Source of the DNA: Saccoglossus kowalevskii
Taxonomy: Eukaryota; Hemichordata; Enteropneusta; Harrimaniidae
Length of the DNA stretch: 27,830 nucleotides
NCBI RefSeq assembly: GCF_000003605.2
Contig: NW_003130360.1
Coordinates: forward strand, 143,036 to 170,865
Direction: 5' to 3'
Shown here one piece after another: positions 5,903 to 27,830 of this stretch (within the stretch, counting starts at the first letter, position 1; each line of letters opens with the position of its first letter). Made by a program: the position numbers and the translations under genes. Under the pieces are notes generated by a model. It worked only from the letters and a program-made list of their open reading frames with translations. It made no database searches and had not been told where the DNA came from.

Positions 5903-6009
5903 GTTATGTCTTTTCTTTGGTAACAACCACGGAGAAGACGTACAATTAAATCAACTAAAAAATCGTTCCATTCCGTCCCAGTATCAGCTGCTAAAGCCTC
6001 TTCTAATTC
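5903..6009 (-). CDS. CECR2: CECR2-like coding exon 2
   Basis: The acceptor is ccgttttcag at 6010-6012 and the exon is 107 bp. It encodes ELEEAL...GCYQRKDIT and ends with two bases of a split codon before a consensus GTAAGT donor (5902-5897). It is the direct continuation of exon 1 in the family alignment. Confidence 0.86.
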
Positions 6010-6557: not shown

Positions 6558-7159
6558 AACTCTCTTCTACAGCCGCTATCCTATATACCCGATTGACACA
6601 AGTCGGTTTGTGTTACGTAAAGATCACGAAAAATAACACAGTTTGTTGTTCATTCTGGCTGTTCGAATTGACCTTCCAGTGTAACGCATAGACAGATGGC
6701 ACTCGCACACTACAACGATAGGAAGTACGAAAATAGCCGAAGCAAGATCGGAAATTCCCGAACAATAGCAGCCTCGTTCGAGGTTTTTTCAGGCTCATTC
6801 AACCATAGTTCAACGAACTCGCGATATAATATTGTACACGATAAAAAACAATCTAATTTCTTCTTTTCCCACAATTATTTGTTTATTCTTTTAGTTTTTC
6901 ATTTTTTCGCCATTTTTTCTTCTTGTCATATTTATATTTATTTTCTAATACTGTTTTTAAATTTTTTGACATAAAGCAGAATTAAAAGATTATTTTTTGT
7001 AAATAAAAACAATACAATAAGTGAAAAATCCGAAAAGCCCGATAAGATTACATTTAAAATATTCTGGACATACTAGTGAAATATTTGTCAAAATGTTGTT
7101 AAACCCTCAACACAAGTCATTGGGGAAATGACAAACCGATTCATACCATAAGTGAAGGA

Positions 7160-7227
7160 AACACCACGGGACAGAGAGGTGTTGTGAGGGCGTCGCTCGA
7201 AACAACTCTCCGATGTCCCATGGTGTT
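7160..7227. other. 68-nt imperfect hairpin, possible structured RNA
   Basis: AACACCACGGGACA (7160-7173) pairs with TGTCCCATGGTGTT (7214-7227) at 13 of 14 positions. Inside it GAGAG pairs with CTCTC after a CGA bulge, then TTGT with ACAA, then GAG with CTC closing a terminal loop. Length and near-continuous pairing resemble a miRNA precursor. There is no evidence of transcription, and an inverted-repeat remnant is equally possible. Confidence 0.35.
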
Positions 7228-9673
7228 AGCTATTTATATACTGGCAACTCCAATTCAATTTAAAGTACTGGGCAAGGTCAACATAACTCCCATAACAACA
7301 ATTCATCATGATCATCTATAAGTTACACCTTCTGGTGAAAATGGTTTAGAGTTCATTGCTCGAAATAACCGGTGAACTTGCCACACAAATGTCATAAAAA
7401 CGAACAAAAAATGTTACATAATATGTTGTTTGTGAGTCCAACTTTCTCAAAAACAAAAAAACGCATTGGCATATTTTTTCTCGGGAAGGAAAAAAACTTC
7501 CTTAAAATCTTCTTGTTTTTCTTCAAAAATCAGTCCACTGGTTTATATGTTTCAGCACATGTAATAAAGCCCATAGGACCATCATTATTGTTGACGTGTC
7601 TTTGTATGATTTCGCTTGCATAGGGGTGATCTTTTGTTGTCATCCCTCTCTTGTAAGCGTAATGAATTCGCGTACGTCCATCGCTTTGGCAAATTGTCAT
7701 ATACGTGTCATGGCACGATGGAGTAGTTGTCCTGGTCTGCACAGTTCACCGTGACATCGGTGAGAGAGGTCACCAGTCGGCATTAAAAACAGTCAGACGA
7801 GCTTTTACTGTCAATATAGTCAATCGAGGGAGTCTTATAGTTTATTTCATTCTTACGTTATGTGCTGGCGTTCTTTTCCCAGTAGAAATTCATTTGGTGC
7901 AACAGCGCCTGTATGACTACTACTGTGCTGGTCATTATGGGCGTCAATACGCCTTCTAAGTTCTTCGGTTTTCAAATATACTGGAGTATCAAACGGTTTT
8001 GATTATACTTCAATGCAATCACAATCATTATTGTGGCTATTACCTATACCTGCTGTACACTGACTTAATACGTGGGCATCACAGTATTACTAACCGATGG
8101 TACCGCACACAGTAGATGGCGACAATCGCAAATTGCAGCACCTTCCATCAGTCACGTTGACCTTCTTCCAACAAGATTAGATAAGTTGTAAGGAATACTT
8201 TACTTATCAATTAGCTTTTCATTTTTCCTTTTAGGTGTCCACATTGCATGATATTACAGTTTTTGTGAGGTAATATTTTATGTTATTTTATTTGGTTATG
8301 GTCAATATATATTAATATCAAATCTATAATACCAATCAGTTTTTCAAAAAAAGTTCATTGATCCTAAATTCAACATCATCACTAGTATTAATTTATTGGG
8401 TTGCTTTTCCGTATTTAACATTTGTTATTATTTTGAAATATACTTTGATAAACTGGAAATTGGGCCTTTAAATACAAACGAGTAATTTTATATAAACCAG
8501 ACCAGACTGAACCTGTACAAGTACCGCGACGAAGCGGATTTTCCCGCGAACCTCGTAGGGAGAAAAACATACACATCGAAATAGCTACCATGGCAATAGT
8601 AATTTCAATGTCTCGTGCAAACCGTGCCCTTATCCTCGGCAGTCATGGCAGTGGTTACATTCTCTGCGTAGACTCCGAAATCCATTGTAAACTACTGAAT
8701 GTCTACAAAGAATCGTTTTAGCTCAATCCGCGGAACTTGGGACTGGATACTATGTTGGCACACGGCCAAATCACACGCATGTCGGTCATATAGAGCAATC
8801 ATTTTAAAAGCCAAATTTAAAACTAACGCGTTGCTTGAAAACAGGAGAGGTAAACAGCTGATTCAATTGAGCCCCCCCCCCACACCGAAAAACGCCCTCT
8901 AGAGTTCAATTTTCAATCCCACAATTCTTTACAAAATCCAATATGAATTTCTTCCCTATAGTAAAATAATGGTATTTAGCGAGAAACATCTTCTGTAATC
9001 CCAATCTTTGTTTTTTGTCCTAGTCCTAGAATGTTATAAAATTTCGGTATTATGGCCCCGATCAAGAAGCGAAAATTCAAGTTCACGGAACGAGAGGTTT
9101 TATTACTGCGCAATGGAATGATTAGCACTGTAATGCTCGATTGAATCTGCTATATGTTAACTTGAACATGACTCATAAGGCGGTATTAGGCTTCTCAGTC
9201 TGATTTGGCACGTACAGACGTCAATGACTCACACTAAACTGATTGGTTTACTCACTTTAATACTATGTATCTTCGAGGGAGACAGTATGTGATGAAGAAA
9301 CAGCAAAAACAACAACATGGACACTTTGCCATTATTTATCTAAACATTTCCCGGTCACCTCAGTTTCATAACTGTTTTCTAATGGCATGAACCCATAACC
9401 ATGAAAGTATGAAGAAAATGTAATCTTGAATACGTCGTATATTGCGCCCTCTAACGACTGACATTTCAAATGTGTCAACAATATAATTTATCTAACTATT
9501 TCGAAGTTAAGCTGTGTATCACTGCCCAAAATTGAGATAATCTTTAGCTGATACGTCATCAGGCTGAGGAGTGATCTCTATTCTCACACGTCGTGCTCGC
9601 ACTAGGGAATTCGCCGTCACTCGACAAGCCCCTGTGTACACCTTACATATAAGTCTCGCCCTTAGCTCTTCTG

Positions 9674-9681
9674 TGACGTCA
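9674..9681. promoter_or_regulatory. CRE palindrome TGACGTCA
   Basis: A full 8-bp CREB/ATF consensus palindrome in a locally GC-richer patch (about 9540-9720), roughly 3.1 kb upstream of the CECR2-like start. Motif match only. Confidence 0.3.
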
Positions 9682-11361
9682 GAGAGCTGCGGTTGTTTGT
9701 GTGGCCGTCGTTGCACGATGAGTAATCATCACAGCTCCCTGATTATACTGACGAATGAATACAGTTTCACCCATCATGTATATAGAGGGCGTATGTTTCT
9801 CTGCAATACTTGAATGCGGTCCATCACCAAATTCCATCACCAATACTTCACATGACGTTCAACTGAATACAATGTAATAATATTATATAAATTTGTTTCA
9901 GTCGTCAAATAAACTAGAAAGATCAACAATGTAAATGCGTTGGAAGTAATTTATACAAATTAATGCTAATTAAATACGACCAATCCCGCCCTGTGTGGCG
10001 AGGATCTCAAGGTTTGCTGCGGATACTGAAAGAGATAAAGTGTCGAGGCCGCACGCGGCGTCACTTTATCGCGGGAAGAACTTTATATCCCAGAGAGTGC
10101 CCACATACGAGGTGTTTAAATTACCCGACTTGAAATCTGTCACCCGCACCGTCCGAAAACTTACATTTCAAGAGAGTATAATACTTTAATAAAATAAATT
10201 CAGTCGTGTGAATAGCCCTCCGCGAGTTCCGTTCTGGGGAAAGGCTCCATATCCCCCCCCCCCCATAGAATACGCTATACAAACCCTGGAGCTTTATTGC
10301 GCTATGCATGAATGTAATACACGTGTTTACGAGTCGTGGATATATTTCGGAATTTATTTTAATTCTTCTATTAAATTTGCATATTTAAAATGTGGCAGCT
10401 GGACGCTATACTCAAGCTTGCATAACGATCAACTGACGAAAATTCGTGCTCTAACCCTGAACATGACAGTTGAGTCGAAGCATATGTGATACGTCGAAAA
10501 CAAATTTCAACAAACAAGCTGTTGACTGATTGGTCGATTTGGTGTTGGGTTGGCCAGCCAATCAGGCACATTCTTGTAAGCAGCTTCGTAATGACCCGAA
10601 CACACTGAGTTCGAATGTCAATGATTGACATGGAATTATATGTAGACTATGGAGCTGTGTTTGTATCCAGACACACGTTCTGAGAGTTCGAAACCAGCTG
10701 TGGTTGTTTTTCTTTGTTCTACTCATCTTGGTCAGAGTATTTTTTTTTTCAAATTGTCATCTATTAAAAAGTCCTATGGTATAAAGTATTTATATTATAA
10801 GTAATCCCTTTTATGTAATATATGTATTGTAAATATAACATTACATGAAACAATTCAAAATGTGTATTTGTAAGTACATTTGTATTGCGTTACACAATGA
10901 AAATGAAGTATGTGTATTTGTAAGTATTACGTTACACGCTGAAATTAAATATGTATTATAAATGACATATCATATGTGTATTCAGTTGAGTGGAAAAAAG
11001 CCACGTCGTCACAGGCATCGTTATCTCACCATTGACATTTTTGAGCTGTAAATCATTCTATAAAGTTCTGGCTGGTGTTCCGTTGTGTTTGACGACGAAC
11101 GTATCTCTTTCTGAATATTTACAACAAGCATGCAAATGAAGCTACACATCGGGTACGAGGTTAATTGTTACTTTGAAATGATGACGATAGCAATTAAGCT
11201 ACCTGGACAAAGATATATCATTTAAACAAAGCTAAACAATCGAAATTACACTTTTTCTTGGCAACTATTTAGATATTGCAGAAATCGAGTTAAAAGTGTT
11301 TTTACAGTAAATTTCACAAAACGCTATTGGTGGAAACAAAAACAACCCAAGATTTTCGTGA

Positions 11362-11743
11362 AAGAGACATTGTCAAAACTTTTATTCAAATTGCACGCAG
11401 ATCGTAAAAATAAATAATTCTGCGTCTGAATCTAATGAAATTAAAATAGGGGTTCTACAGGGGTCCATCCTGGACCCACTATTATTTTGATCATATGCAA
11501 ATGATAAGCCGACCGCTGTTTGTAATTCTAATATTAACATATACGCGAATCAGACGGTTATTGATTATGTACAGACTTCACGTGGTGAAGTGTAGCATAA
11601 CTTTAACGGCGACCTTGAATGATCAAATTCATAGCTACAATACCAATTATTCATCTCAAATCCACCCTGTTACAATTAGGGCGCATTATATATAATGTAG
11701 TTTTAGCTACATCGGGGCAAACTTATGGAACTCAATCTCATAA
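11362..11743 (+). pseudogene. Degenerate non-LTR retrotransposon (LINE) reverse transcriptase fragment
   Basis: From 11362 the plus strand reads, in one frame, FYSNCTQIVKINNS, then IGVLQGSILDPLLF. This is the LINE reverse-transcriptase block normally of the form GVPQGSxLGPLLF. After a stop at 11488-11490 the same frame continues ANDKPTAV and then YANQT at 11542-11556, where catalytic YADDT would stand, followed by VIDYVQTS. Further stops lie at 11593 and 11620. In a different frame, 11705-11743 gives SYIGANLWNSIS, like the C-terminal GAxLWNSIP block of CR1/Jockey-type elements. The piece between is too short, so an internal deletion is inferred. The copy is dead: three stops, altered active site, no endonuclease domain. 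The clade is not certain. Confidence 0.75.
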
Positions 11744-12737
11744 AATACTTTAAGAGTCAGAACTGTCATATTGTTACATTGTATGGAATAAAGAAGGATG
11801 TGTACTATAAATATTATAATTTATAGAGGAATTAAGTATGTAAATTATGGGGAGAGGAACTATGTATATTTTAAGTACATGCACTGCGTTGTATGGAGAA
11901 AGGGAGTATTTGTTTGTAAGTACTAGTATTACAATATTCGGAGCAAAAATAGCGAAATGATAAACATGGTGCTAAGACTCTCAAGTTGCACTGCCCTCCT
12001 TATCAAAGCAATAGCACCACATGTATCCGGTTTTACACATACATCCCTGGCGGTTCAGACAGCTTGTATGTCAAAACCATATTCGCAATAATCACGGGTG
12101 AAGAGCGGCCAATGTCACACTCGATACTCACATGGACGCAATGAACGTATACACAATGGCAATAGTAATGATTTGTCGTATTCCCTCCGGAGACCATAGT
12201 CGCTACTGTCATCATTCCAAGCTGATAAGCCTGCTAAATAAAGTTTTAAGACAAGTTCTTTGGAGTTGCTGATACTTTGTGAATGAATTGCCATACTATA
12301 CAAGATCATACGTGAAACATTTGGCGGAACAAACTGTTTTTGAATATTTCATAATTGAAGGTGTTTTATTTTTTTCGCATAGAATCGTGTGTATTATCCC
12401 CGTATTCAACTTAAAGTAATGTCGTAGTGTCAACTCAAAAATGTAGTGAACGCATGTTTTGGATATGACTTTGTATAGCAATAAACAATACAATCACAAA
12501 GCATCAACACTTTGCAAGAACTGGTAAATGGTATGAGGCTTACAGGTAGGCCAAACAGATACATCAAACAGATGAATGGGTCAATTATATCGATAGAATA
12601 ACAACTGACAGTTCAGGATCGAAAACATACAATCATGCTATTAAATTGATATCAACACTTGATCTATCAAGATATTGGAGTTATCGGCCACCAAGGCATA
12701 CAGTTTGTTTCTTTTAAAGGGTGGTAGTCGTCGCGCC

Positions 12738-12890
12738 ACACATGCGCGAGATATACGAGTCTCCTATAAACAAAGATGGCGACTTTGACTGTTGCGCAGA
12801 TAAACGAGTACAAACTTTGATTAGGTATTTGTTAGGTGATTTGATTATGGGAAAATCAATGTTTATAAACACAAATGTCGCACATGCGCA
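12738..12890 (+). promoter_or_regulatory. Candidate promoter patch (YY1-like and NRF1-like motifs)
   Basis: CpG-richer sequence contains AAGATGGCGAC (12773-12783), the canonical YY1 element often found at transcription starts. It is flanked by CATGCGCGA (about 12741) and CACATGCGCAG (about 12881), which resemble NRF1 half-sites. A 14-codon frame starts at the ATG inside the YY1 motif (12776). About 560 bp downstream is a strong splice donor. This could be the start of a noncoding first exon for the CSRP gene; nothing here proves transcription. Confidence 0.3.
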
Positions 12891-14100
12891 GCGAGAAGAC
12901 CACGCCCTTTCAGATTTTTCTATTTGATAAGTATTCTGAGATTACAAAGACAAAATTGAAAAACTATGTTCTAGTCACCCTGGTTCTATTATGAATAGCC
13001 TTGACAAATTTGTTAACCTGTTTTCGTTGTTTATGTAATTTACCGTACTGAGATGTTATGTTGCGTATACTGTGTTTTTTATTTTATGTGAATTATTCTG
13101 TTTTGCACCTTGAAGTGCATTGAACTATCCTACCAACAGAGAAGCTTTCATGGCAACTACGATTGTTGACACGAGCTAGATAATAAAATATTCTTTAAAG
13201 TTTATTGTCCATTTGTGGGGAACACGTGAAGTGTCGTGTGCAAATTATTTGCAGAATTCCTACCCAGAGTTACCCACGGCTTGCCTAATAACAGGAATCT
13301 GCCAGTCTGTCTCACACATCTTTCCGTCATTCCTGAAGGTAAGTCCGATGCTCGCATCTTTGATATGAAAACCTTTTGACATTATTGTTATATGAGTTCA
13401 CGGATCGACGCTACTGATGTTAGAGTACACTGCCCAAGTTTAATATGAATTTAAGTAGCGACTGTCTAACTTTTTTGTTAAAGCTCGTTATTTTTAGTCG
13501 GAGTTATCGCTAATTATCACTGATCACTGTTTAACGGTCGTTGTGTTAACAACCTCCTTAAGATAAAGAAAACACATTTACCTTCAAAATTATCGCTTCG
13601 TCATGTGAAATGTCCACGGAGTGAGATGTCCATCTCCTGTGAGCTAATGTTCAATGTCCTCCGACTTCGGTATGCCAGCAGAGTGTGGCGTCTGAAAAAA
13701 TTCGAAATATTCAACTCTATACAACTGCTAGCAAAATGGGAGAAAGCACATGTACGCAATGTTACAGTTGTGAATCGCTGTGTACGCTCCATGGGCCGGG
13801 TCAACGTTTGTTTGAGATTTGTTTTTGGTTTGTTTGACAGTACTGTCATTGTGCCAGGCGTACACCGCGAGCATATACATATGTCAAGAAAGTGTGTATT
13901 TCATTCCATCAAAGAAAGGAGTGTTGTTTATTTTGCGACTTAAACACTACTACCGGTGTAGTAGTTAATATACACTTTTGATGGGATTCGCATGAAATGG
14001 TACGCTTTACGATGCATTGGTGACTTTAGAAAAAGTTCAGGAGTTCATCCAAAGGGGGCCTTGTGAAATATGATGAAAACGCATTGACAGTAAGCCGAGT

Positions 14101-14116
14101 AGATAACCGGTTATCT
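14101..14116. promoter_or_regulatory. Perfect 16-bp palindrome: Grainyhead core flanked by GATA motifs
   Basis: AGATAACCGGTTATCT is its own reverse complement. The centre AACCGGTT is the Grainyhead/TFCP2-family consensus, and each end is an AGATAA GATA-factor motif, inverted relative to the other. It lies about 3.2 kb upstream of the CSRP start codon. Confidence 0.35.
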
Positions 14117-14392
14117 TCGGTACATTGCTAAAATTATACATAACTAACATTGCAGTGTTGAAGGAGCCATGCCCCCATTGGGGCCCCTTGCCCTTAAGCC
14201 CAGACTCCTAAATATGTCAATACAAACGCCTCTCGTACAGTACGTACGTGTTGGTGTATCAATTCAGTAACGGTCTCCCCGGTCACCACAAATTCAGTTT
14301 ATTGTCAACTTTAGATCCCCGAAATTTGTACAGAATTCAATAACGCGACGGATTCATTTCTATCATCTACTACATGATTGTCTCGTAGCTAT

Positions 14393-14402
14393 CCTTATAT
14401 GG
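14393..14402. promoter_or_regulatory. Perfect CArG box (SRF site)
   Basis: CCTTATATGG fits CC(A/T)6GG with no mismatch. Vertebrate CSRP genes are known SRF targets, and this one lies about 2.9 kb upstream of the CSRP ATG, so a role in muscle expression is plausible but only inferred. Confidence 0.4.
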
Positions 14403-14892
14403 CCATTAACTGCGGAGACGTGCTCTAGGGCTGGCATTGGTATTTCGCACTCGGGTCAACGTTCTCAGTTACCGATGTATGTGTAATAACAATATGTATA
14501 TTGGAAAATCCATCACACGGGAAACCGTGACAGTGACATTTTTTGGACAGTTTTGAAGCCATGTAATGAAAAGCTTTTCTCCCCAGTCTACTCAGTAACC
14601 AGATATGGTGCTTGACTCCCCGTAGGGGATCTCATACTTTGCACAGTATGCATATATGCGGAATACCCGCTTTGTGGTCACACTGTTATAAGCATAACTA
14701 CTCTAGTAACTGGTGAAAACATAAATACCACACTTAAAAAAAATAAAACGAACTTGAATCTCAGCATAACTTGAGCAATCGGTAAACGAATTAAATCAGT
14801 GAACGGGTAAAAAGCAACAACGCCCAAACGGCTCTGTATAAAGCTGTACAGACTGTACTTTATATTTGTAAAACAAATAAACACAGTAGGCA

Positions 14893-15169
14893 TGACGTCA
14901 CATATGCCGGATGAAGATTGTTGACGTCCCGGTCGTATTTTTTTTACGCTTCGCTGATCATCAGATGTTTACATCCGGGCTAATTCACGACCTTTCCCCT
15001 GTGCAATGTTACAGAGTTTATCCACTTATCAACAGATTTTCAGACAGCAGCACAAAAACGATTTGCGCAACGTATTTACGTACATGTACATCAATGTGTA
15101 ACTAAACTTGTGTTTATACGGTATTGGCTTGGGTTATTTTTGGTGCCGCTCAATCTTGATGTGACGTCA
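14893..15169. promoter_or_regulatory. Pair of CRE palindromes
   Basis: TGACGTCA occurs at 14893-14900 and again at 15162-15169, each followed by CAT/CAC. Two full 8-mer CREs within 280 bp would be rare in sequence this AT-rich. Both lie upstream of CSRP. Motif evidence only. Confidence 0.35.
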
Positions 15170-15741
15170 CATTACAGCTTCCATGGCAGCGCATGTCGTC
15201 CTAACGAACGATCCCTGGCCCTTGACAAGTGATATTTTTTTTTACATAAATGACAAACATGCAAATAAAGTGTTAAGACTTGTCTAAAACCCCGTCTAAA
15301 ATATCAATATGTGCGATAAATTCAGCTTATTTGAAGTATTTGGAAGGACCCGGAATTCTATCGTCGTGCGACGTATAAAACAAACGACGACACAATATGT
15401 GCCACTAATCCCCGTATATCGGATAGTATTTCCAGATCGTAGTCATCAACTGAACCAGCGGCTTTTATATCACCAACAGCTGTGCTTTGCCAGTACCTCA
15501 GACAACCTCTGAACCAGTACGTACTGTTGTGTGCCAGTGATTTATGCTAATCGTAGTGGCGGTCCTTGTTTCCTAGATGGTACCTCCTGGTGTGTCCGCA
15601 TTTTCTTCAAAGAATGTGTCGTCCAATTAGGTTTAACATGCCCCTACAAAATAGGGGTCAGGTATGGATGAAATAACAACTGTCATGAACAACGCGAAAA
15701 TTTAAATAACGTCCACGATGGTCGGAACTCAAATTCCTTGT

Positions 15742-15750
15742 CATTGATTT

Positions 15751-15786
<36 letters not shown>
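15742..15786. repeat. (TTGA)n tetranucleotide microsatellite
   Basis: A run of TTGATTTA then TTGA units ends at TTGCCCG. No other role is seen. Confidence 0.85.
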
Positions 15787-17287
15787 CCCGTCTGATTATT
15801 TTTTAAAAAAAAAATTAGAAATACCATGGTAGTTTTGAAACATTATGGATGTTTCGAAAACTGTGGAAAACACCCTGAATGATTACAAAAACTTGATGCT
15901 AAAAACGCAATGTCAACTAAAGTTTTACAAGAATGCAATGTAGTACAATAATTATATTTTTGTTATGTTGTAAAACATTCTTGACCCCCTGCCCCCGACT
16001 TCGTGAAACACCACAGGAATCATACCCTGATTATAGCTGTGAACTTACACACGTGGGCACACATGCATTCTTTTCATGCTTCGATTCATCGTATTGACGC
16101 AGCTGCCCCACCCTAAACATATCTGGAATTTTACAAGTGTGCATATTGTTATCGCCTTTGGTTAAATGTATCGCAATCGGACACCAGAACTATGTCGAAA
16201 TCACCACCAAGTATGGTGTTTTAACTAACATTTTTTGAATAGCAATAAGCATTGCGTATGATTCATAGTGATGGGATGTCTGCTTATAATCACAGCATAC
16301 CCCTCATTCCAAGCATCGTTGTGCAACTTCACCTACTTATAAGCGAAATGTATGAGCCGTGATAGTTAAAATGTACAAGACACTGAAGCCCAATTAATTT
16401 CAAGGGTTACTGTGACAATTGTGACCTTTTCAAAGTAGGTCACAATGATCATAAAGAATCCTATACTTCTCAGGACAAGTCTCGCGAGAAATATCTGACA
16501 CATATACGAGTATCACTGACAACACTTACAAATTAATATGAATTTGATCACCAATATTACAGGACAACACCAGACGCACCATAGATGTTGTGTGCCTGTT
16601 TATAGGGATGTGTACATGCCGCCGAAGTTTGAAGCTTCGCCATCTTTTCCAAACATGAGTGCAATTTTTCAATATTAGTTTAAATTAAAAATAAAACACG
16701 ATATTCAGATAAACTGTCTGAAAAAAACGAAGTTATCGAAGAATTGACCTACAGTGGTGCTAATTTCCGTGTCATCGGAGGAACTAGTACACTCAAACAA
16801 AGACAACCCCTTTCCATTATAAACGTATGCCGATAACACAGCTCGGACAGCCGATTACAGACTTTCACAATTTTAATAGTTGCGTGAACTTCGACAGTAA
16901 ATAATGTGTATGTATATCTTTTTCATTACAAACCAATAATAAAGAGTCATTTAAAAAAAATACTATTGGTGTGAAATATCTGACGTAATGCGGAGAGAAG
17001 ATGATTAACATTCTCGAAGACAATATTATTGAACCAAGGGAGGTATTTTCGAGAAAAAATAAACAAGCTAGGGGAGGGGTATTTATCGCCCCAGGCACAC
17101 CCGTGCTCTCCACTCACCCGCCTGTATAACATACAAAATGGTAACTACTGTGAATGGTTATTCATTGAATAATTTATAAAAACGTGCTCCATTCGCCCCA
17201 ACCATCCATTAGTACTTTTATTGTAAGTTTGATGTGCCACATTTTTACATTTATGCACAGGCACAGTCAAATACAACATAATTCAAC

Positions 17288-17399
17288 ATGCCTAAATTCG
17301 GAGGAGCCCCGAAATGTCCCAGATGTTCTGGATCAGTATACCACGCAGAGGAGAAGATCGGTGCTGGAGCCAGCTGGCATAAAATGTGCTTCAACTGCA
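17288..17399 (+). CDS. CSRP: CSRP coding exon 1 (residues 1-37)
   Basis: It starts [13 protein letters not shown], the standard CRP N terminus, and carries the first five LIM1 ligands. A cag acceptor at 17258-17260 suggests the exon really begins at 17261 with a 27-bp 5' UTR segment, so a noncoding exon should lie upstream. The donor is GTAAGT at 17400, phase 1. Confidence 0.93.
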
Positions 17400-19600
17400 G
17401 TAAGTACCAGTATTCCGTGTAATGTACATTTCCCCGCTTTCCAAGAAACATACAGTGCCCCCAGTTTACACATTACCGTTAAAATTGTTTAGAAACTTAA
17501 AATGCCGCTTTTAAAATCAATTACAGCAATAGTAAATTTTGGTGTAGATGTAGACTGGCAAGACTTTACAAAAAATATATAATTAATTGTCAATTTAGCC
17601 TTTTTAACGTGATAGCAAAAAATATCGCGACTGCGAAAGAAATTCCTGTCGATCAAGTTCGTTTTCGCAATCACGCTATAAGGACTACAATAACAATTAA
17701 TTGGTTCTTTTTGTAAAACAAAAAAGAAGTCCCGACTTTGCCAGTCTAGTGTAGATGATATAATTTCGGAATGATTAGAGCAACCATTTGAGCGTCGTCT
17801 GATCAAACAGTAACTATAGTTTCGAGCACACATGTACAATATTAAATATTCTTGAAAATAAATAAATAAACACTCCCTCAGTCATTCCATAAGTTTTCGG
17901 CGTTATTGTAATGAAAATAAAATAAACTTGCCTAGATTTACTAATGTATTTGAATTACTTGAATTAATTAACGAAATAAATTTCCATTCTGCTGCTGGAG
18001 AAAAATAAAAGTTTGGAATAAATTTTAGCCTAAGATTGGCATATTGTGGGCAAATCAGAAGCATGTGATACTAGTACTCATTTTCAATTTGATAACAACA
18101 AAATGGACAAAACTTCGGTGGGTTACCGGGAGTCAATTGTGACAATTAATTAATATAACGTATGGATTTGAATAACCAAAGACATTTCTATTGTCTTTGG
18201 AATAACCAAGGCGCATTTTTCTTTTTGTAAGATTTGTGCCATAAAATGTTGGATTCAAGCACCCTTGGAGAACATGACGGTGAAATCTACTGCAAGAGTT
18301 GCTACGGGAAAAAGTATGGACCTAAGGGATATGGATTTGGCGGTGGTGCTGGCACATTGAGCATGGACCAGGGTGAGCGTCTTGGAAACAAGCCTACGCA
18401 ACAGTAAGTTGTCTTGTTTACTGTTTTAACAATCCGCCCATATACCGTGTATATTTTACACGTTGTCAGTTAACTCGACCGTATGGACTCTTGAGTGTTT
18501 TGATGACAATCCTAGAAGTAAACTGGTGAGCGTAAACTGCTTTCATGTAGCGTGTAAATAACCATGACAAATGAATCAATCTGTATGATCTTTGTATGAG
18601 GCTTTAGACTCTGAAAAGTTTATAACAAATTTTATCTAATACAAAATCTCGAAATGGAATTTAAAATACTCTTCTAAAATCAAGTAAACCGGGCTTTGAG
18701 TGAACACAACATTAAAAAGTATGTTTGATTTAGTGATTACCAATATTTCAGGATTTGTTAACAAACCAACCCATTTTATCTTTTTTCATGGTGACCACAA
18801 ATCAACGGGAGGTGTTCTGATATAATACAAAGTGGGAGTGTAACTTTAAAAATTGAAACAGTGTGAAATATAGTTATACTAGTAAATACTTGACTTCAAG
18901 CAAAGATATCCTCATTGCTAGTCATTGTGAGCATTCTCCGTTTTCCTGTGCATTTTACAATAACACGTTTTAATACATGCTATGATTGCTTTGCAGAACT
19001 GGGCCAGCAACAGCCCAAGCCTACACTCACTGTGATGTGGCTTCTGACGCCCCATCTAAATTTGGCGGTGCTGACAGGTGTCCTCGTTGTGGACATTCAG
19101 TGTACCAAGCAGAGAAGATGATCGGTGCAAACTCAGTAAGTTGTCAATCCCTGTCATATCTATCCCAAATGAAGTAGACAACCTCTCTGTTCACAATCAG
19201 TTTATCAATTTCAATGGAAAAGGGTGTATTTACAATATCCATAGATTTGTCTAAAAATGTTCTCACTTATATTTTCTACTCTCTCTTTCTCTCCCTAGAG
19301 CTGGCATAAGAAGTGCTTCTCTTGCGCCGCCTGTAATAAAGGTCTGGATTCCACAACGGTGTGTGACAGGGATGGGGAAATTTTCTGCAAAGGTAAGAAG
19401 ACATTTTATATTCCACCAAATGATACTGTATATGTACAATCAGAGCTTCAGTCCGTACGATTTGGATTCGTATTCAACTTCGCAAGCAATGATATTTGTT
19501 CTCCTCGATTTTTCTCTTCACAGCTTGCTACGCAAAGGGATTTGGCCCAACGGGTGTCGGTTATGGCCAAGGAGCTGGTACACTCAGCACAGGACAATAA
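17288..19600 (+). CDS. CSRP: Cysteine- and glycine-rich protein (two LIM domains, CRP/muscle LIM family), complete
   Basis: Five exons (17288-17399, 18232-18403, 18997-19135, 19299-19392, 19524-19600) join in frame to 197 residues; vertebrate CRPs have about 193. LIM1 zinc ligands are C10, C13, H31, C34, C37, C40, C58, C61. LIM2 ligands are C123, C126, H144, C147, C150, C153, C171, C174. Each LIM is followed by the family's glycine-rich linker ([30 protein letters not shown]). The KKYGPK motif at 64-69 is the nuclear-localisation sequence described for CRPs. CRPs bind alpha-actinin and zyxin on actin filaments and act as nuclear cofactors of SRF and GATA factors in muscle. No catalytic activity is expected. 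All introns are GT-AG. The gene is convergent with the ZDHHC17-like gene. Assignment to CSRP1, 2 or 3 is not meaningful outside vertebrates. Confidence 0.95.
17400..18231 (+). other. CSRP coding intron 1 (832 bp), containing a MITE
   Basis: A GT-AG intron interrupting LIM1 after its third cysteine. A 198-bp terminal-inverted-repeat element occupies 17551-17748. The 116-codon minus-strand frame at 17489-17839 mostly reads through this element and is not a gene. Confidence 0.85.
17542..17757. mobile_element. MITE with 9-bp target-site duplication
   Basis: The direct repeat GTGTAGATG at 17542-17550 and 17749-17757 flanks a 198-bp element. The element's ends are TAGACTGGCAA (17551-17561) and TTGCCAGTCTA (17738-17748), perfect 11-bp inverted repeats. 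Pairing continues inward imperfectly, including AATTAATTGT against ACAATTAATT and a longer arm of about 40 bp at roughly three-quarters identity. A 9-bp duplication points to a Mutator-like or related transposase family. There is no coding capacity. Confidence 0.8.
18232..18403 (+). CDS. CSRP: CSRP coding exon 2 (end of LIM1 and glycine-rich linker)
   Basis: The acceptor ttttgtaag is at 18230-18231, after a T-rich tract. The exon encodes [24 protein letters not shown] and the [18 protein letters not shown] linker, ending in a split CA|A codon before GTAAGT at 18404. Confidence 0.93.
18404..18996 (+). other. CSRP coding intron 2 (593 bp)
   Basis: A GT-AG intron between the two LIM units' coding exons. 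AT-rich; no repeat or other feature recognised. Confidence 0.85.
18997..19135 (+). CDS. CSRP: CSRP coding exon 3 (inter-LIM linker and start of LIM2)
   Basis: The acceptor is tttgcag at 18990-18996. The exon encodes the 28-residue linker then [20 protein letters not shown], holding the first LIM2 zinc ligands. It ends in frame (phase 0) before GTAAGT at 19136. Confidence 0.93.
19299..19392 (+). CDS. CSRP: CSRP coding exon 4 (core of LIM2)
   Basis: A pyrimidine-rich acceptor (ctctctttctctccctag) precedes [20 protein letters not shown] and [11 protein letters not shown]. The donor is GTAAG at 19393, phase 1. Reading through the donor gives only short extensions without similarity. Confidence 0.93.
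19524..19600 (+). CDS. CSRP: CSRP coding exon 5 (C terminus)
   Basis: The acceptor is ttctcttcacag at 19512-19523. The exon encodes the last LIM2 cysteine in [10 protein letters not shown], the second glycine-rich repeat [10 protein letters not shown], then TGQ and TAA at 19598-19600. Confidence 0.93.
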
Positions 19601-20360
19601 ATTTGCCAGCCGTCAGGGAATTTCATTTGAAGTTCAACCTCAATTTCCATACTGAAGATATCTAAATACACTGTTCTACAGAAATAATAAAACAAACATA
19701 CACGACATACAGATCACTGGGGAATTACGGACATTAGAAGCAAAATTTACCATGAATTTTAGAGGTCTGAAATAATCACGTGATAATCACATGGTGCACT
19801 GTTTACGTCATGTGATAATCACGTGATTTGTTATAGCTGAACATCGAAAATAAATCCACGGTTGCTAAAAAAGTAACCGTGATAAAGCCTACCGGAAAGC
19901 ACGTAATCGCACGTGAAAAAAAGTTAACACTATTTTCTCGGCCACATTAGTGTCCAACTTGAACTAAGAAATGTTTTATTCACTAATAAATAAAAATAAT
20001 ATGCACATAGGCATACAGATTTTACGACAATTCTACCCATATCCTTAAAATAGATTATATACATTGTAGAAGCTTTCCTTTCCTTTCACACATCTTTCTA
20101 GTTTCTTAAAACGCTTCCATATGCACTGCACCCACTTTAATATAGCAGAAACAATAATAGTTTTTAACTTATAAAATAAAGAATTTGAGGGTAAAATTCA
20201 CCTAAGTGCCTTTCTGAGAATAATATAGCAAGGACTCATTCAAGTCGTAAATCGCACAACCATTCGCATGCAGCACACACTTTGCATAGCCTAGTGTATT
20301 GTAATGCAGAATTTTTCTTCTTTCTTCCATAGGCTAATAAAGTTATTTCTTTTTACGTCC
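19601..20360 (+). other. Probable CSRP 3' UTR with several poly(A) signals
   Basis: AATAAA hexamers on the plus strand occur at 19686-19691, 19849-19854 and 20336-20341. Which one is used cannot be decided from sequence. If the second or third is used, the mRNA would carry the inverted repeat at 19774-19828. Confidence 0.5.
19774..19828. repeat. Near-perfect 20-bp inverted repeat with E-box (CACGTG) cores
   Basis: AATCACGTGATAATCACATG (19774-19793) is the reverse complement of CATGTGATAATCACGTGATT (19809-19828) at 19 of 20 positions, with a 15-bp spacer. Each arm holds one CACGTG and one CACATG/CATGTG E-box. It could be a hairpin in the CSRP 3' UTR or a small transposon relic. Confidence 0.7.
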
Positions 20361-22213
20361 TTTTAAAATCTCGGTCTGTTTTGTCGCGTGATCTCAGTCT
20401 CTCTCTCTCTCTCTCTCTGCCCCTGTATGTCAAAGAACACAAAGTTTCCAAAAGAAACAGTTCAAACACGAGCCCCTGTCTGGTATAGATATTAATAATA
20501 AAACAACACTTTTACTGATTTACCCTAATTTACTTCTACTGATAAAATGCGGACCATTAGAAAAATCAACCAAAATACCCTTATGTCAGTCTTTCAAATA
20601 ATAGGCAATGTTTATGCTTGTATTCTTCCTTCTACGCGGAATTCAGAACGCATATGCGTATCCCTGAACAAGACAAGCGTGTTGGCGCTATATCATTAAA
20701 AAGGAAATTTTTATTATTATCGCCAGTGAGATTTAGACCACGTCGTTGGTTACACCATTGGCCATCGAATGTATACAAAAATAATATGCAATATTAAAAT
20801 ACTGACTCTGACAACTATATTTGATTGAAAGCTAGACCGGGTTTTAAGTTGAGATTTCTAGAACAAGTTATATTATTCATACATGTCGATTATTATGCCA
20901 AGTATCAGAACAATACAGCATACACGCATTTCCTTGTATCATTAAATAGCGCCACCTAGTGTTCAATCCAGAGTGATCCTTACTGCACTGATGGTGAGGT
21001 ACATCACTGTTGTCACTAATACACTCTTTAACCAGAGTTATTGGGGAACCAGAATTGCATATTACAGAGTATGACATGGTAGAAATGTGTACAAATCTTT
21101 GGCTGAGCAGTGTTGGTAGTGTTGTTTATGTGTGGGCTTCGAATACGAACACAATGTTCAGCACCATCAATGAGGTTTGATTGACAAACCATGGAAAAAG
21201 GGACTGAAGCATGCGCATAAAATATTGTAATGACCTTTAACGAGGTTATGATGTAGACACATCTCGTGAATATTATAATTATTAATAGAAAGCATTTATT
21301 ATGAAATGCCGTAATCATGTATTTTCGGTCTCAACTCTGTCTATTGTGGTAATTTGAAAACTGTACACACTTTCTATCATACTAAACCGGTCACCTAATT
21401 TAACAACTGTCTCTGGCCTTTACACTGTAATCTGCATGAGCGTAGACAAGCCTATATAGGTTTTGATTGTATATAGCGTCACAAGTGGCTGTTCTCGTCT
21501 CCATGTGTCCGATATAAAATTAAACATTTGGTAACATTTTTGCATACCTGATTTCAGTGGCAAATTAAATGTTACCTTTTAAAGACACACTTTAATGCAA
21601 ATAAGATTTTTTCCAATATACAATCACCCTAACCATTAAATCACCTGGGATTTTCAGTTGTTTTATGAGATAAACTAAAAAAATTGTGTCCTGAAATAAT
21701 GAACTTTGTAATATAAAATTGTGTTTTTAAATTAAAAAAGTAAATTGCTGATTTTAGCATTTGTCTGCATCTCTCATACAGTGTTCCAAAACAAATTGCA
21801 GGAGACAGTAGTTGAAAAAAACCATAAAATCAAACTATTGTTAAGAATCAGATTTGTAATCACTCCTATTTTACAACACTTTGCTCACTGAACTAGGGAG
21901 TCTTAATAAGCCAACATAGTTCAATACACTAAGTATGAAAATACATACTAGTAATCACAGATTCCATCAAATTTCATGTTGCAATGATTTACTGTATAGA
22001 AATAGAATTGAGTATTTCCCAGGACGAGATATACATTAGCATTACAAAGTTTTCAATCATGATTTAGACAAACATTTTCATCATTTCACCAGCAGCAGAT
22101 TTAGAGGGGACGCAGGAAGGCGGGCACGGTGCTCAATCTGCTGTTACTTGTACACGTATATCCTGTCTGTCACCATAACGCCATAAGTTACAGTGTGCCT
22201 CAATTTTGCGGTA
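20361..22213. other. Intergenic region between convergent CSRP and ZDHHC17-like genes
   Basis: AT-rich sequence with only short, unrecognised open frames (for example 21028-21318 on the minus strand). Nothing else is supported apart from the TC microsatellite. Confidence 0.6.
20398..20418. repeat. (TC)n dinucleotide microsatellite
   Basis: About ten TC units just downstream of the last candidate CSRP poly(A) signal. Confidence 0.85.
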
Positions 22214-22420
22214 CTGTAAAATACTTTATTTTCACTTGGAAATAATTTTCACTATTTTCGCTGAAGGAATGATTCAGTGAAAATAAAATCCAGCGAATAT
22301 ACCTTTTTCCTATATTTTACATTCAACTCATCAAAAATCAGTGGAAATAAATTCCATACAAAATATCTGAAAATTGCTTTCAGCGAAAATTAATTACAGC
22401 TAAAATAAAGTATTTTACCG
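22214..22420. mobile_element. 207-bp MITE flanked by TA (Tc1/mariner-type target)
   Basis: The left end CTGTAAAATACTTTATTTT and the reverse complement of the right end, CGGTAAAATACTTTATTTT, match at 18 of 19 positions. Similarity continues inward through AATTTTCGCTGAA-like blocks, so almost the whole element can fold back. TA dinucleotides flank both ends (22212-22213 and 22421-22422), the signature of Tc1/mariner-superfamily insertion. There is no coding capacity. Confidence 0.75.
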
Positions 22421-22549
22421 TATTGCACTGGGTATTTTCATCCTACCATAAACGCGAATTCCAAATATGGAACAGTTACGCGCGCGTAAGTGTCTTCTAA
22501 TAGTAGGAACCAAACATGGCTGCCCCCAGGGTTTGACTGGACGTTTTTG

Positions 22550-22733
22550 ATTTCGGCATTCTCATTGTGTATTCCTGGGAGATAAAGATGTATAATAATA
22601 AGGTTATTACGAGGATATTGCAGCTGTACTTTCTCATGCATACTTTGCAGTATCCTCCCAATAACCTCATAATTATGCAATGCAATAATGATGTCATTAT
22701 AAAAGCTAATTTCCATAATGTTAATGCTGATAT
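22550..22733. repeat. Imperfect long inverted repeat, probable fold-back/MITE relic
   Basis: The inner arms 22591-22622 and 22646-22677 pair at about 26 of 32 positions around a 23-bp loop. A second matching block lies further out (22550-22569 against 22714-22733, about 15 of 20). Overlapping frames of 92 and 81 codons (minus) and 69 codons (plus) run through it. Plus and minus frames share LQYPxNNLII only because the DNA is palindromic. Confidence 0.6.
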
Positions 22734-24549
22734 ACAGTACAACCTGAAACTAACAATTTCAGCACTAAATCAATGAAAGTGATAAAAAGACTGCTGCTGC
22801 AGCAGGCTTCCCTAACTGTTTAAGAAACTTCACTAATCAGTACTACTTAACTTGCTGTTTGTACATAGCTGTGATGATTCCAGTGTAACAATAAATAGCT
22901 AAGTAAGATCACTATGGCAACCATGAAATATCAAATATGTAATTCCTAAGACATTTCTTTGAATAAATAAAAACAGTAACAAAAAAATTCTAATGCCAAA
23001 AGTAAAGAATTAATAACACCTTTGACAAATTGAGGATACAAGAATACTCATGTTGAAAGAAATAAGTAGAAACAACCCTTTATTAGTAAGTGCCATATCT
23101 GCTCCTGCCAAACAAGTTTTGATGTCACATTTTCATGTATTATTCAATAATCTCTTTGTTAATTTATAGGTATTGATAAAATATTGAAATTATTAAAACA
23201 TAAATGTCACAATCTGGAGGCAAAACAAGACATATATGGCCTTGGATATCATAAATAATTAGATGGTCACATGAACTTATGTCAAGGCATGTTTGAAAAT
23301 TGGTTAAGAAGACTTAAAAATAAAAAATAACACGGCTGCCACATTAGACATTTCAAATTATATCAAAATAATTTGTCTGTAAAATGAAGGGTAATACAGT
23401 TCTTCAAAATAATACAACATAAGAGCATAAAGATGGAGAGAAGAGGTTACTTCAGAATTACTGTTCTCAGCCAGTGTGATTTTTTTTTTACAAAAGCTCT
23501 TGCATAGATGTGTATGTACAAAGACAGTAACAAAATAAGATTTTAAAACTACTACAGGAATTAAGAAAAAAATTAGATAAAAACACATGCATACATAGCT
23601 TGGAAATCATACTCTGGTTTTATATACAAAATGAGTCAATGGGTTTACGAAAAAAAAACACATTTTAGATCAACTTGCATTATAAAACAGTTCAACAATC
23701 AAGATGCTTCAATATGAAAGAAGGACTAATACCAGGGATAACATAGTGGTCCTTTAACTGAATGCTTGGATTTTCATTACTATATTTAGAAATACTGGTG
23801 GCAAATATGAAACTTGTATAAACTTATCTTTGGTTAATTGCCGATAACACACATGTACATTTTCATTTTTGATATCATACATACCATATTTGCTCTATTA
23901 GTAATGCATGCACTTTCAAGAATTAGAAGTAGTACCTAAAAATAAGTAAAAGTTAATTGATACAGCGTACTATAAAAAAGCAATTTCAGGGATGTGCTTC
24001 TAATAGAGCAAATACAGTAATCATATTTCATTTAAAAAAAACAACTCCTAATACGCTACAGGGTCTAGCACTGATTAAAAACATAAAAGTAAATGTCACA
24101 AGGAAGCAGATGAATAGACATTAATGTTACACATTATTCTTATGAAGATAATTAATCCTTAGAATTAACAAGCCTAAATTACTAGATTGTACTAGAAAAT
24201 GAACTTCATTAAAAAAAATTGTTCAGTCATTAACCAAACTCCAAATAAATTGATTTGGTCAAATTTGACTTCAATAGTGATTGATCAGTTGAGTACGTTA
24301 TCATCTAAGTACCCTGTACTCTCATCACACAGTATTCTTGAAAGCAGACGCATCATTAGAAAATGTGCACCAGCCAGTTACTGTGAAACATCTACATGGA
24401 TTATACTACATAGAAAATTGAAGTTCTTGTAAGCAATGCAGTAGCCATAAATACTTAACGGTCCAGTCGTTATACACTGGCGTCACAGACATACAGGTTA
24501 CAATATACACCAACTCTATAACAAAGTAATAACCATGTACAGCTTGTCA
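22734..24549 (-). other. Probable 3' UTR and downstream region of the ZDHHC17-like gene
   Basis: The first AATAAA I find on the minus strand past the stop codon reads TTTATT on the plus strand at 23079-23084. That would give a 3' UTR of about 1.5 kb, plausible for this family. The stretch also contains a TA-flanked MITE at 23884-24017. No coding sequence is recognised. Confidence 0.45.
23884..24017. mobile_element. 134-bp TA-flanked MITE (family copy 1)
   Basis: The left end CCATATTTGCTCTATTAG and the reverse complement of the right end, CTGTATTTGCTCTATTAG, agree at 16 of 18 positions. TA flanks both ends (23882-23883, 24018-24019). A diverged second copy is at 26007-26158. Confidence 0.7.
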
Positions 24550-24715
24550 CTACACAAACTGATAGTTTTCTTGGGTTGAAAGTGGTTTGTAAGTGTAGCT
24601 GCCTGTTGACTGTATGTCCATATCAAACTGAGTCTTCCAATCAATTTTCATTGGCCGACACAATCCACAGCAACGAATCTCAAAGAAGTTGACAATATTT
24701 CTGATGTAGCCATTG
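24550..24715 (-). CDS. ZDHHC17: ZDHHC17-like terminal coding exon
   Basis: The acceptor is ttctgttttccag, ending at 24716. The exon encodes [31 protein letters not shown] and the tail ending ENYQFV, then TAG at 24552-24550. Human ends SGYQLV, so the C terminus is intact and slightly longer here. Confidence 0.92.
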
Positions 24716-27338
24716 CTGGAAAACAGAATGAAAAAACAACTGTAAATACTGTTGTTAACATAAACAGAATATTTCAAGTTTAGGTCAAACAAAGAAATAA
24801 TCTGTTTGTACTCAGTTCAAAAGAGGACTTTCATGACTTTTTTACAAAAATACTGAAAAAGGCGCACCATCACACCTGTTTTATGAGCATTTTAGACCCA
24901 GAAACTAATCTTTTTTTTAGTCCAGCCTAGTTAGATAGCTGAATCTTACAGTTCCAGCCAACTCACAGGTAGGATTGCATCCATCTGGACATGCACCATT
25001 AGACTAAGATTGATCACATGGATGTTAGCATGCATGAAAGTATACAATGATACTCCACTTACATCACCACTCTAAAGGAAACTGAAGGAAACACACTCAC
25101 TTGAAAGGACTTCTGATTCTTCCCTTTTCATGTCGGAAATGTTTATATCTTGTCTGGTTCATGCGTTCATTTGTTGACATGCCCAATGCACTGATCTGAA
25201 AGAAGAAGTATTATCATGTTTTAGTAATAGTAGTCACATGACACTATCAAAGAAACACAAGACAGTCACATGAATATCACATGGCAACTGTCAACGTAAC
25301 ACATGACAGTCACATGGACATCACATGGCAACTATCAAAGTAACACATGAGTCACATGGACATCACATGGCAACTATCAAAGTAACACATGAGTCACATG
25401 GACATCACATGGCAACTATCAAAGAAACACATGGCAGTCACATGAACATCACATGGCAACTATCAAAGAAACACATGACAGTCGCATGAACATCACAGCA
25501 GTAAAATATGCTTAGATTAGTACATACCTGGTACATTTGACAGATGAATAGGAGTCCAACCCATACAACATGTACCAGTGCATTGACAGAAGTCCAAAAC
25601 ACCCATGGTGAACACTTCATTACTTGAAACAACCAGGCAAAGATTCCATCCTCCTCAAAGTTAGTCTCACATTCACCATTCCAAACTATAGTGGTCAAAG
25701 ACATGTAATTATGAATACCTTGATAAGCAGCTAGGATAGATATTATTCAATGATATATATTTATATACACACTCAAAAGTAAAATGAGAGCAATTTTCAA
25801 TAACCATTAATACCAATGATATGTCCATGGTTGTTAACACCCAATAATGAACATTCATTTTCACAGCAGATTATCAATTAAACAGGGCACTGACATTTTT
25901 TTCAACTTAAAACTGAGTACTTCTCATAGACTAATAAGGAGGAATCAGAGAAACCAGCGGGCATTACACCTGTTAAACTGTCACCGGGCAAACCCAATAT
26001 CACATACCATATTTTCTCTATTAATAGTGCATATTTTTTAACAAATTACAGTTGTAATTGTTTCTATGGTCAAAATAGGTGATATTTTGATGATTCAGAA
26101 CACAGTATATGTGATTTTGGGTTTGCAAGTATATGCATTTCTAATCGAGTATTAAAAGTATACTATATTTGCACACAAAAGAGGGACATGATATAAAACA
26201 AGCCTGTTTTTAACAAAGAAACGAACACATAGGAGCAAACATGGTAATGTTATTTATATTGTAGGTATTATAAATTTGTTTTCCCATAGTAACTTGGGTC
26301 GATGGTGAATACAAACATATTCCCAACTTGACTATATAGCTGTGAAAGATACAACAATGAATGAAAATCAGTGATAAATTACTCACATTGAATCGTTCCG
26401 TACAGACACCATATGATCATGATTTCCAAGAAAAATAAATAACCAATAAAATATTTGTGATTGCCGGCACCTGTTGTTATGAACAGCAGACAATTTAAAA
26501 CATTAAATTCAATGTCTAGATGTGATGAAATTTTGCTGATTCCAAAAATGTACAGAGCTACCACAACAACATCTTCACATACTGTGGCCCAGTTAATATG
26601 CATATATATAAAATTTAAAACAAATCATTAGGAATATTACAACCCTATCTTTTTGTAACTGTATATGTTTCAATCTACACTCTGTACTAAATAATTGGAC
26701 TGCAATATAATCACTATATAATATAGACAAAAGACCTCAATGGAACACAAAACTCGCTTATTATCTATGCAAGATTTGAGATACATGTAGAAGCAAAATT
26801 GCACAAAATAAAATAAAAAAATAAAAAAAACAAATTGATTGCCAGTCAGTCACACTGGATTAGATGATGACACAAAAAAAGTGTTATTGATGTGTTAAAA
26901 TACAACTCTGTGTACCAAGCTTGAACCTACTTGAACTGAGTGAATTTGATATATACATGCAAGCACTGTGCAAAAAAAGTCAAACATTGTAGAAATTGGT
27001 CAAACATACAAACAATCTTAGATTGGGCTATGACGTGGACAAACTTTTACTGTGTTACTGTGCAATTATTTATCCACCAAGCAGAACTGTGCCGAAAAAG
27101 ACAAAATTGAAAGAGAATGAAAATAGCATACACACAGTAGTAAAACACAAACTAAATCATATTTTATAGTGTAATACTCACCAACACAGTTGTCAATCCA
27201 GGGACAGTGGTGGTCAAACTTAGCAATACATCTATTACAATATGAACAATGCTTGGATCTGATTGGCTTTCTAATTATACAGGTTGTACAAAATACCTCA
27301 ATTTTCAACTTTCCAGTTTCAGCCAGCTCGATAATAGT
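24550..27338 (-). CDS. ZDHHC17: Palmitoyltransferase ZDHHC17/HIP14-like, C-terminal half (5 exons; 5' part off the right edge)
   Basis: Five minus-strand exons (27338-27182, 26470-26387, 25685-25528, 25195-25101, 24715-24550) join in frame to 219 residues plus TAG. Residues 1-52 hold the cysteine-rich domain: [39 protein letters not shown], with catalytic DHHC at 42-45 and zinc cysteines and histidines in place. [15 protein letters not shown] begins one membrane helix; [20 protein letters not shown] forms the last. STNERMN stands for the TTxE motif, and [13 protein letters not shown] closes the family's cytosolic C terminus. These blocks match human ZDHHC17 as I recall it; ZDHHC13 is the closest alternative, but its active site is DQHC, not DHHC. 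ZDHHC17 sits in Golgi membranes and S-palmitoylates huntingtin, SNAP25 and others, recruited by N-terminal ankyrin repeats not in this window. Confidence 0.93.
24716..25100 (-). other. ZDHHC17-like last intron
   Basis: A 385-bp GT-AG intron with no recognised feature. Confidence 0.85.
25101..25195 (-). CDS. ZDHHC17: ZDHHC17-like exon with TTxE-type motif
   Basis: The acceptor is ttcag, ending at 25196. The exon encodes [20 protein letters not shown] then [11 protein letters not shown]; human has LGITTNERMNARRYKHF. The first threonine of TTxE is serine here. The donor is GTGAGT at 25100, phase 2. Confidence 0.92.
25232..25496. repeat. 42-44 bp minisatellite filling a ZDHHC17-like intron
   Basis: About six copies of a unit beginning GTCACATGAACATCACATGG followed by CAACTATCAAAGAAACACAT. 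Units differ in length by a CA insertion (44 against 42 bp), and the first copy is shortened. The tract takes up most of the 332-bp intron 25196-25527. Each unit carries three CACATG hexamers. Confidence 0.85.
25528..25685 (-). CDS. ZDHHC17: ZDHHC17-like exon, lumenal loop and last membrane helix
   Basis: The acceptor is ccactatag, ending at 25686. The exon encodes [30 protein letters not shown] and LLFICQMYQ, aligning with HCETTY...CSPWMFW...LLMCQLYQ of human ZDHHC17. It ends in frame before GTATGT at 25527. Confidence 0.92.
25686..26386 (-). other. ZDHHC17-like intron (701 bp) containing a MITE
   Basis: A GT-AG intron between the GAGNH and last-helix exons. A diverged TA-flanked MITE lies at 26007-26158; nothing else is recognised. 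Confidence 0.85.
26007..26158. mobile_element. 152-bp TA-flanked MITE (family copy 2, diverged)
   Basis: It begins CCATATTTTCTCTATTAATA, close to the left end of the element at 23884. It ends TAATCGAGTATTAAAAG, 13 of 19 with the other copy's right end counting the TA. TA flanks both sides (26005-26006, 26159-26160). Confidence 0.55.
26387..26470 (-). CDS. ZDHHC17: ZDHHC17-like exon, GAGNH block and membrane helix
   Basis: The acceptor is aacaacag at 26478-26471. The 84-bp exon encodes [20 protein letters not shown] and WCLYGTIQ, the NH-containing block after DHHC and the third classical membrane span. The donor is GTGAGT at 26386. Confidence 0.92.
26471..27181 (-). other. ZDHHC17-like intron (711 bp)
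   Basis: A GT-AG intron after the DHHC exon. It contains an A-rich tract near 26806-26831 (AAATAAAA-type). No other feature. Confidence 0.85.
27182..27338 (-). CDS. ZDHHC17: ZDHHC17-like exon with the DHHC catalytic core
   Basis: The acceptor is atattacag at 27347-27339. The exon has 157 bp, 52 codons plus one base, with donor GTGAGT at 27181. It contains the catalytic D42-H43-H44-C45. In CPWIDNCVG an aspartate replaces the glycine or asparagine usual between W and NC. Reading through the donor gives EYYTIKYD, which is intronic. Confidence 0.93.
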
Positions 27339-27421: not shown

Positions 27422-27830
27422 CATTTCAATTAAAGAACTGAAGACATCATTAGAAAATAAACAATATGAATAGTATCAAAGGAATCGGACTTACAGTTTT
27501 CAACAAGAAGTCGAAAATATCACTTTTTACCAAAAATGACAAAAATATTCACCAAAATTAGAGAATTAAAGATATCATTACAAAATAAACAAATCTGAGA
27601 GAGGTCCACTTGTAGTACCTATATATGTAATATCAAAGCAATTGCACTTGCGATTTTTAACAAGAAGTCGAAAATATCACTTTTTACCAAAAATGACAAA
27701 AATATTCACCAAAATTAGAGAATTAAAGATATCATTACAAAATGAACAAATCTGAGAGAGGACCACATGTAGTACCTATATATGTAATATCAAAGCAATT
27801 GCACTTGCGGTTTTTAACAAGAAGTCGAAA
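27422..27830. repeat. 157-bp satellite array in a ZDHHC17-like intron (runs off the window)
   Basis: Two full units, 27504-27660 and 27661-27817, differ at only 4 of 157 positions. A third begins at 27818 and is cut by the window end. A diverged, internally deleted copy of about 80 bp precedes them (about 27422-27503). The region lies upstream of the DHHC exon, so it is intronic if the gene continues rightward. Near identity implies recent amplification or homogenisation. Confidence 0.9.

Follow-up and report, generated by a model that had tools for sequence, protein, structure and literature searches.

Linked CSRP and ZDHHC genes in mammals and a hemichordate

The CSRP proteins are muscle- and actin-associated two-LIM proteins, in which each LIM domain is followed by a glycine-rich segment and the first also by a KKYGPK motif. 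The ZDHHC13/17 (HIP14) proteins are ankyrin-DHHC palmitoyltransferases, a family defined by its N-terminal ankyrin repeats. In mammals, genes of these two unrelated families lie side by side at two loci, and here we describe a stretch of 27,830 bp (the window) from the hemichordate Saccoglossus kowalevskii (positions 143,036 to 170,865 of the 473-kb contig NW_003130360.1, below C2226) in which a CSRP gene and a ZDHHC17-type gene meet tail to tail. The simplest reading is that one ancestral linkage was duplicated in early vertebrates; in full, we consider it probable that the window retains an inherited ancestral convergent pair, duplicated in early vertebrates and kept together mainly passively.

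The mammalian linkage is documented by published gene lists. Mouse chromosome 7 carries Zdhhc13 at 48.78 Mb, Csrp3 at 48.83 Mb, E2f8 at 48.86 Mb and Nav2 at 48.95 Mb (PMC6378724), and the gene list of a human 11p15 deletion gives ZDHHC13, CSRP3, E2F8 and NAV2 consecutively (PMC5322952). On human chromosome 12 (76.3-79.3 Mb) the consecutive genes listed are OSBPL8, ZDHHC17, CSRP2, E2F7 and NAV3 (PMC4754774), and NAV1 and CSRP1 are both listed for an interval of approximately 2 Mb on goat chromosome 16 (PMC9495202). The linkage of ZDHHC17 with CSRP2 and of ZDHHC13 with CSRP3, which the original prediction had put forward, agrees with the first three of these sources. In the passages available from another study (PMC3914808), ZDHHC17, CSRP2 and E2F7 are named solely in lists from which the order of the pair cannot be read. 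A literature search, mostly outside subscription journals, returned nothing that joins ZDHHC17, CSRP2 and synteny, and, judged by title, none of the papers that name both genes deals with gene-order evolution.

We take both mammalian pairs to be convergently transcribed. The mammalian loci thus resemble the window in the adjacency of the same two families and, on this assumption, in their convergence. They differ in that mammals carry the pair twice, with E2F7/8 and NAV genes next to it, whereas here one copy was found and the E2F7/8-like and NAV genes lie on other contigs. Irimia and colleagues reportedly described in 2012 ancient conserved pairs of animal microsynteny, drawing on many genomes and regulatory data; the present case is similar in that unrelated genes are adjacent across distant animals, with the comparison here being between one genome and mammalian lists. 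A further parallel is with the paralogons left by the two rounds of vertebrate genome duplication, given the linked paralogue sets CSRP1/2/3, NAV1/2/3, E2F7/8 and ZDHHC13/17, whereas the window links just two of these four families.

A convergent CSRP and ZDHHC17-type gene pair in Saccoglossus

The CSRP gene is complete, lies on the plus strand (17288-19600) and consists of five coding exons (Table 1) forming an open frame of 197 aa, with GT/AG boundaries at all four introns. Its protein contains two LIM stretches, in keeping with the two LIM domains in approximately 190-200 aa that mark CSRP. The top match among 38 solved structures is CRP1 (1b8t, presumably the chicken protein; residues 1-194, E = 8.5e-66), and both family features named above, the glycine-rich segments and KKYGPK, are present in this alignment. 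Mouse Csrp2 is described as having the same number of coding exons, five, together with one non-coding exon (PMC2529283). Genome searches (572 Mb in 4,830 contigs) covered the searchable part with the best candidates scored, and all genome counts are therefore lower bounds. The CSRP protein had 6 matches, namely the five exons of the window locus and one LIM piece of 36% identity elsewhere; a gene of the CSRP1/2/3 type appears to be present in a single copy in the searchable genome.

The DHHC palmitoyltransferase gene lies on the minus strand and is represented by its 3' end, five exons (27338-24550) that encode the C-terminal 219 aa and show GT/AG at those edges that were seen. Position 27338, at which the original prediction closed the pair, marks where the furthest upstream of the identified exons begins and not the end of the gene, which runs on past the window. 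Pfam recovers the DHHC cysteine-rich domain with E = 2.5e-37, from a query in which a single residue, where the last two exons join, was provisional. Compared with provisional human reference sequences, the protein is 57% identical to ZDHHC17 over 208 aa and 41% identical to ZDHHC13 over 183 aa, the two references themselves being 48% identical over 185 aa. Among solved structures ZDHHC9 (8hf3) spans residues 15-214 of the window protein (E = 5.6e-18), and the alignments with the ZDHHC20, ZDHHC5 and yeast-type enzyme structures are confined to the DHHC core.

A search of the genome with the same protein matched 15 places, comprising the five window exons and ten partial pieces. The only other locus resembling both the DHHC part (57%, 47 aa) and the C-terminal part (37%, 46 aa) is on contig C2342. 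The gene at this locus, of similar layout, is a more distant relative, the window gene being closer to the provisional human ZDHHC17 reference; we presume that it might correspond to the fly ankyrin-DHHC gene patsas. Within the 138 kb of C2226 that was read, window included, a motif scan of the minus strand found no ankyrin repeats and the N-terminal part of the provisional ZDHHC17 reference had no match, the 5' part of the gene lying outside the sequence read. Taken together, these comparisons suggest that the window gene is of the ZDHHC17 type and provide good, if not formal, evidence of orthology, the references being provisional.

The two genes face each other across an interval of 4,949 bp from stop codon to stop codon, and the claim of convergent CSRP and ZDHHC17-like genes less than 5 kb apart held. 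The gene identities themselves are far beyond chance; what gives the adjacency its weight is that members of both families also lie side by side at two loci in mammals.

Table 1. Coordinates of the two genes and of features in the gap between them (window positions)
Feature	Position	Strand	Remark
CSRP coding exon 1	17288..17399	+	ATG at 17288, donor GTAAGT
CSRP coding exon 2 (remainder of LIM1, glycine-rich segment)	18232..18403	+	
CSRP coding exon 3	18997..19135	+	
CSRP coding exon 4 (portion of LIM2)	19299..19392	+	
CSRP coding exon 5	19524..19600	+	stop TAA 19598-19600
Gap, stop codon to stop codon	19601..24549		4,949 bp
Candidate poly(A) signal, first AATAAA after CSRP stop	19686..19691	+	consensus only; one of 15 plus-strand AATAAA in gap
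Dispersed inverted-repeat (MITE-like) element in gap	22207..22427		copies elsewhere 83-87% identity
Candidate poly(A) signal, first AATAAA downstream of ZDHHC17 stop	23079..23084	-	consensus only; one of five minus-strand AATAAA in gap
Second inverted repeat in gap	23882..24019		20-nt arms, 90% complementary
ZDHHC17-type last coding exon incl. stop	24550..24715	-	
ZDHHC17-type exon	25101..25195	-	
ZDHHC17-type exon	25528..25685	-	
ZDHHC17-type exon	26387..26470	-	
ZDHHC17-type exon with DHHC motif (FDHHCPW)	27182..27338	-	

Other families of the mammalian loci

To place the junction within the wider mammalian arrangement, we considered the families that flank it there. The E2F domain (PF02319) has 4 matches in the genome and none on C2226. 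One of them, on contig C1380 (31,633 bp), is E2F7/8-like, a label that we assume from one domain exon and general features of the family. Two pieces of E2F7/8 domains used as queries likewise went unmatched, with E values up to 1 allowed, across the readable part of C2226. The NAV AAA-lid domain (PF25408) has 2 matches, which fall inside a single 1-kb stretch of contig C1296 (493,889 bp), and none on C2226. For the oxysterol-binding protein family (PF01237), whose member OSBPL8 adjoins ZDHHC17 in the human list, none of the 16 matches is on C2226. The low counts of CSRP, NAV and E2F7/8 are those to be expected of an animal whose lineage did not pass through the vertebrate duplications. If a tight ancestral block had existed in the mammalian order, E2F7/8 would be expected 5' of CSRP, where the contig extends for approximately 160 kb. 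In this genome tight linkage is shown for the CSRP-ZDHHC17 junction only.

The interval between the two genes

The first AATAAA past the CSRP stop lies 86 nt downstream, and that past the ZDHHC17 stop approximately 1.5 kb downstream on the minus strand. If these first signals are used, approximately 3.4 kb would separate the two 3' ends, which speaks against their overlap. This is a weak test, as the signal is frequent in AT-rich DNA and more copies lie further on. The miniature inverted-repeat transposable element (MITE)-like sequence has relatives, at 83-87% identity, near 447 kb on C2226 and in the stretches L037 and L039, and for the second inverted repeat the same DNA offers no more than a similar piece of 29 nt outside the gap. 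A short inverted repeat (19774-19828; 20-nt arms, 95% complementary; AATCACGTGATAATCACATG) also occurs soon after the 3' end of CSRP. CArG boxes (SRF sites) were considered as evidence and dropped, since the window holds 3 against 2.05 expected and at least 3 occur in 34 of 100 shuffles; two of the three fall within the gap.

As judged from sequence features of this kind, the gap gives no support for shared regulatory DNA. The suggestion in the original prediction that such DNA, or overlapping 3' ends, keeps the genes together is accordingly unsupported, with the nearest poly(A) signals well apart and mobile-element-like sequence lying in the gap. The poly(A) spacing and the gap element would both still be compatible with shared regulatory DNA or 3' overlap.

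Surroundings of the pair

Upstream of CSRP, 187 stop-to-stop frames of at least 40 aa lie wholly before 17288. None of the 26 frames of at least 81 aa in these 17 kb reaches the curated Pfam cut-off; the search was limited to those lengths, 161 shorter frames were left out, and small exons could be missed. Positions 1-17287, with no Pfam-recognised gene, could be a long first intron following a non-coding exon, comparable to that described for mouse Csrp2 (PMC2529283). The window has no Rfam matches and no tRNAs. Two tandem repeats accompany the ZDHHC17-type gene: a CACATG-rich minisatellite in one of its introns (25234-25497; 44-bp units, approximately 6 copies, 91% match), and a 157-bp repeat upstream of the DHHC exon that reaches the window edge (27474-27830; 2.3 copies, 94% match).

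Seven frames of at least 100 aa from the readable part of the contig were compared with Pfam, yielding one transposase, one ApeC domain, one bromodomain, one sub-threshold AT-hook and no match for three. The transposase is an 851-aa frame on the ZDHHC17 side of the window (L010:6335-8887) with a piggyBac-type domain (DDE_Tnp_1_7, E = 7.9e-54). The ApeC (apextrin C-terminal) piece is at L014:8358-8750 (E = 1.1e-29); frames near it in L015 and L017-L018 begin alike (LGVSYNGL.GN.EGD) and may form a local cluster, and the one of them sent to Pfam had no match. The bromodomain piece (L021:3937-4287, minus strand, E = 9.9e-7) has long minus-strand frames nearby, and we tentatively take this gene to be of the CECR2 type.

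Origin and persistence of the pair

We favour an explanation in which CSRP and ZDHHC13/17 would already have stood next to each other in convergent orientation when the genomes of early vertebrates were duplicated. These duplications would have given rise to ZDHHC17-CSRP2, with E2F7 and NAV3, and to ZDHHC13-CSRP3, with E2F8 and NAV2; CSRP1 with NAV1 might be a third remnant. The window would then represent the unduplicated, ancestral-type form of the pair that mammals carry twice. That one ancestral pair was duplicated in vertebrates had been part of the original prediction, and it finds support in the apparently single CSRP gene beside a ZDHHC17-type gene and in the paralogous linkage of the published mammalian lists. 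The age of the pair is bounded no more closely than as predating the duplications in vertebrates, with no named animal ancestor assignable. We infer both the descent of the adjacency and a mainly passive persistence, in which a short tail-to-tail junction would have been missed by breakage with no shared enhancer or 3' overlap. In favour of passivity are the dispersed repeat within the gap and the distance of approximately 3.4 kb from one nearest poly(A) signal to the other.

Several points weigh against this explanation. A single non-mammalian genome was read, which formally leaves room for the two genes having come together independently; the mammalian transcription directions are assumed, and the human references for the identities are provisional. 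The E2F7/8 and NAV genes, linked to the pair in mammals, are on other contigs here, and the oxysterol-binding family is likewise missing from C2226; the wider block might be broken in this lineage, or spread beyond the contig ends, or might never have been tight. Plus-strand AATAAA continue to 24244, leaving room for a long CSRP 3' end, and the very length of time for which the pair has lasted argues to some degree against a purely passive process.

A rival explanation is functional retention, whether by CSRP regulatory DNA within or beyond ZDHHC17 (a bystander, or genomic regulatory block, arrangement) or by 3' ends that overlap or share termination. It would account for members of both families being neighbours in so distant an animal as well as twice in mammals, and the 17 kb 5' of CSRP without a recognised gene would offer room for long-range control. 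Set against this are the spacing of the nearest poly(A) signals, the dispersed inverted-repeat element lying within the gap and a CArG count close to expectation, and we give functional retention only a modest chance of being right. An elaboration of it, which we regard as unlikely, supposes an early-animal block of four families, ZDHHC13/17-CSRP-E2F7/8-NAV, in which the convergent CSRP-ZDHHC17 junction proved the most durable and persisted in many phyla by virtue of CSRP regulatory DNA in or across ZDHHC17, and of which vertebrates would have had three paralogous copies. The separate contigs of E2F7/8 and NAV would also fit a coincidence, in which CSRP and ZDHHC17 became neighbours independently, once in this lineage and once in the ancestor of vertebrates, as would the absence of the piggyBac-type transposase, ApeC and bromodomain genes recognised on the readable part of the contig from the mammalian lists read (PMC6378724, PMC4754774, PMC5322952). 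In a genome of tens of thousands of genes, two low-copy genes would by chance come to lie side by side in a given order about once in tens of thousands of cases, a rough estimate from approximate gene numbers, and such a coincidence is very improbable.

Implications

The pair adds one more case to a phenomenon already known, conserved animal microsynteny, and has most likely been retained passively; taken alone it reveals no new mechanism. It provides a defined place at which to ask why some neighbouring genes stay together. It also anchors a paralogon of three loci and four families (CSRP1/2/3, NAV1/2/3, E2F7/8 and ZDHHC13/17) and, with its adjacency seen once in an unduplicated genome and at two places in mammals, makes a clean marker for reconstruction of the vertebrate ancestor.

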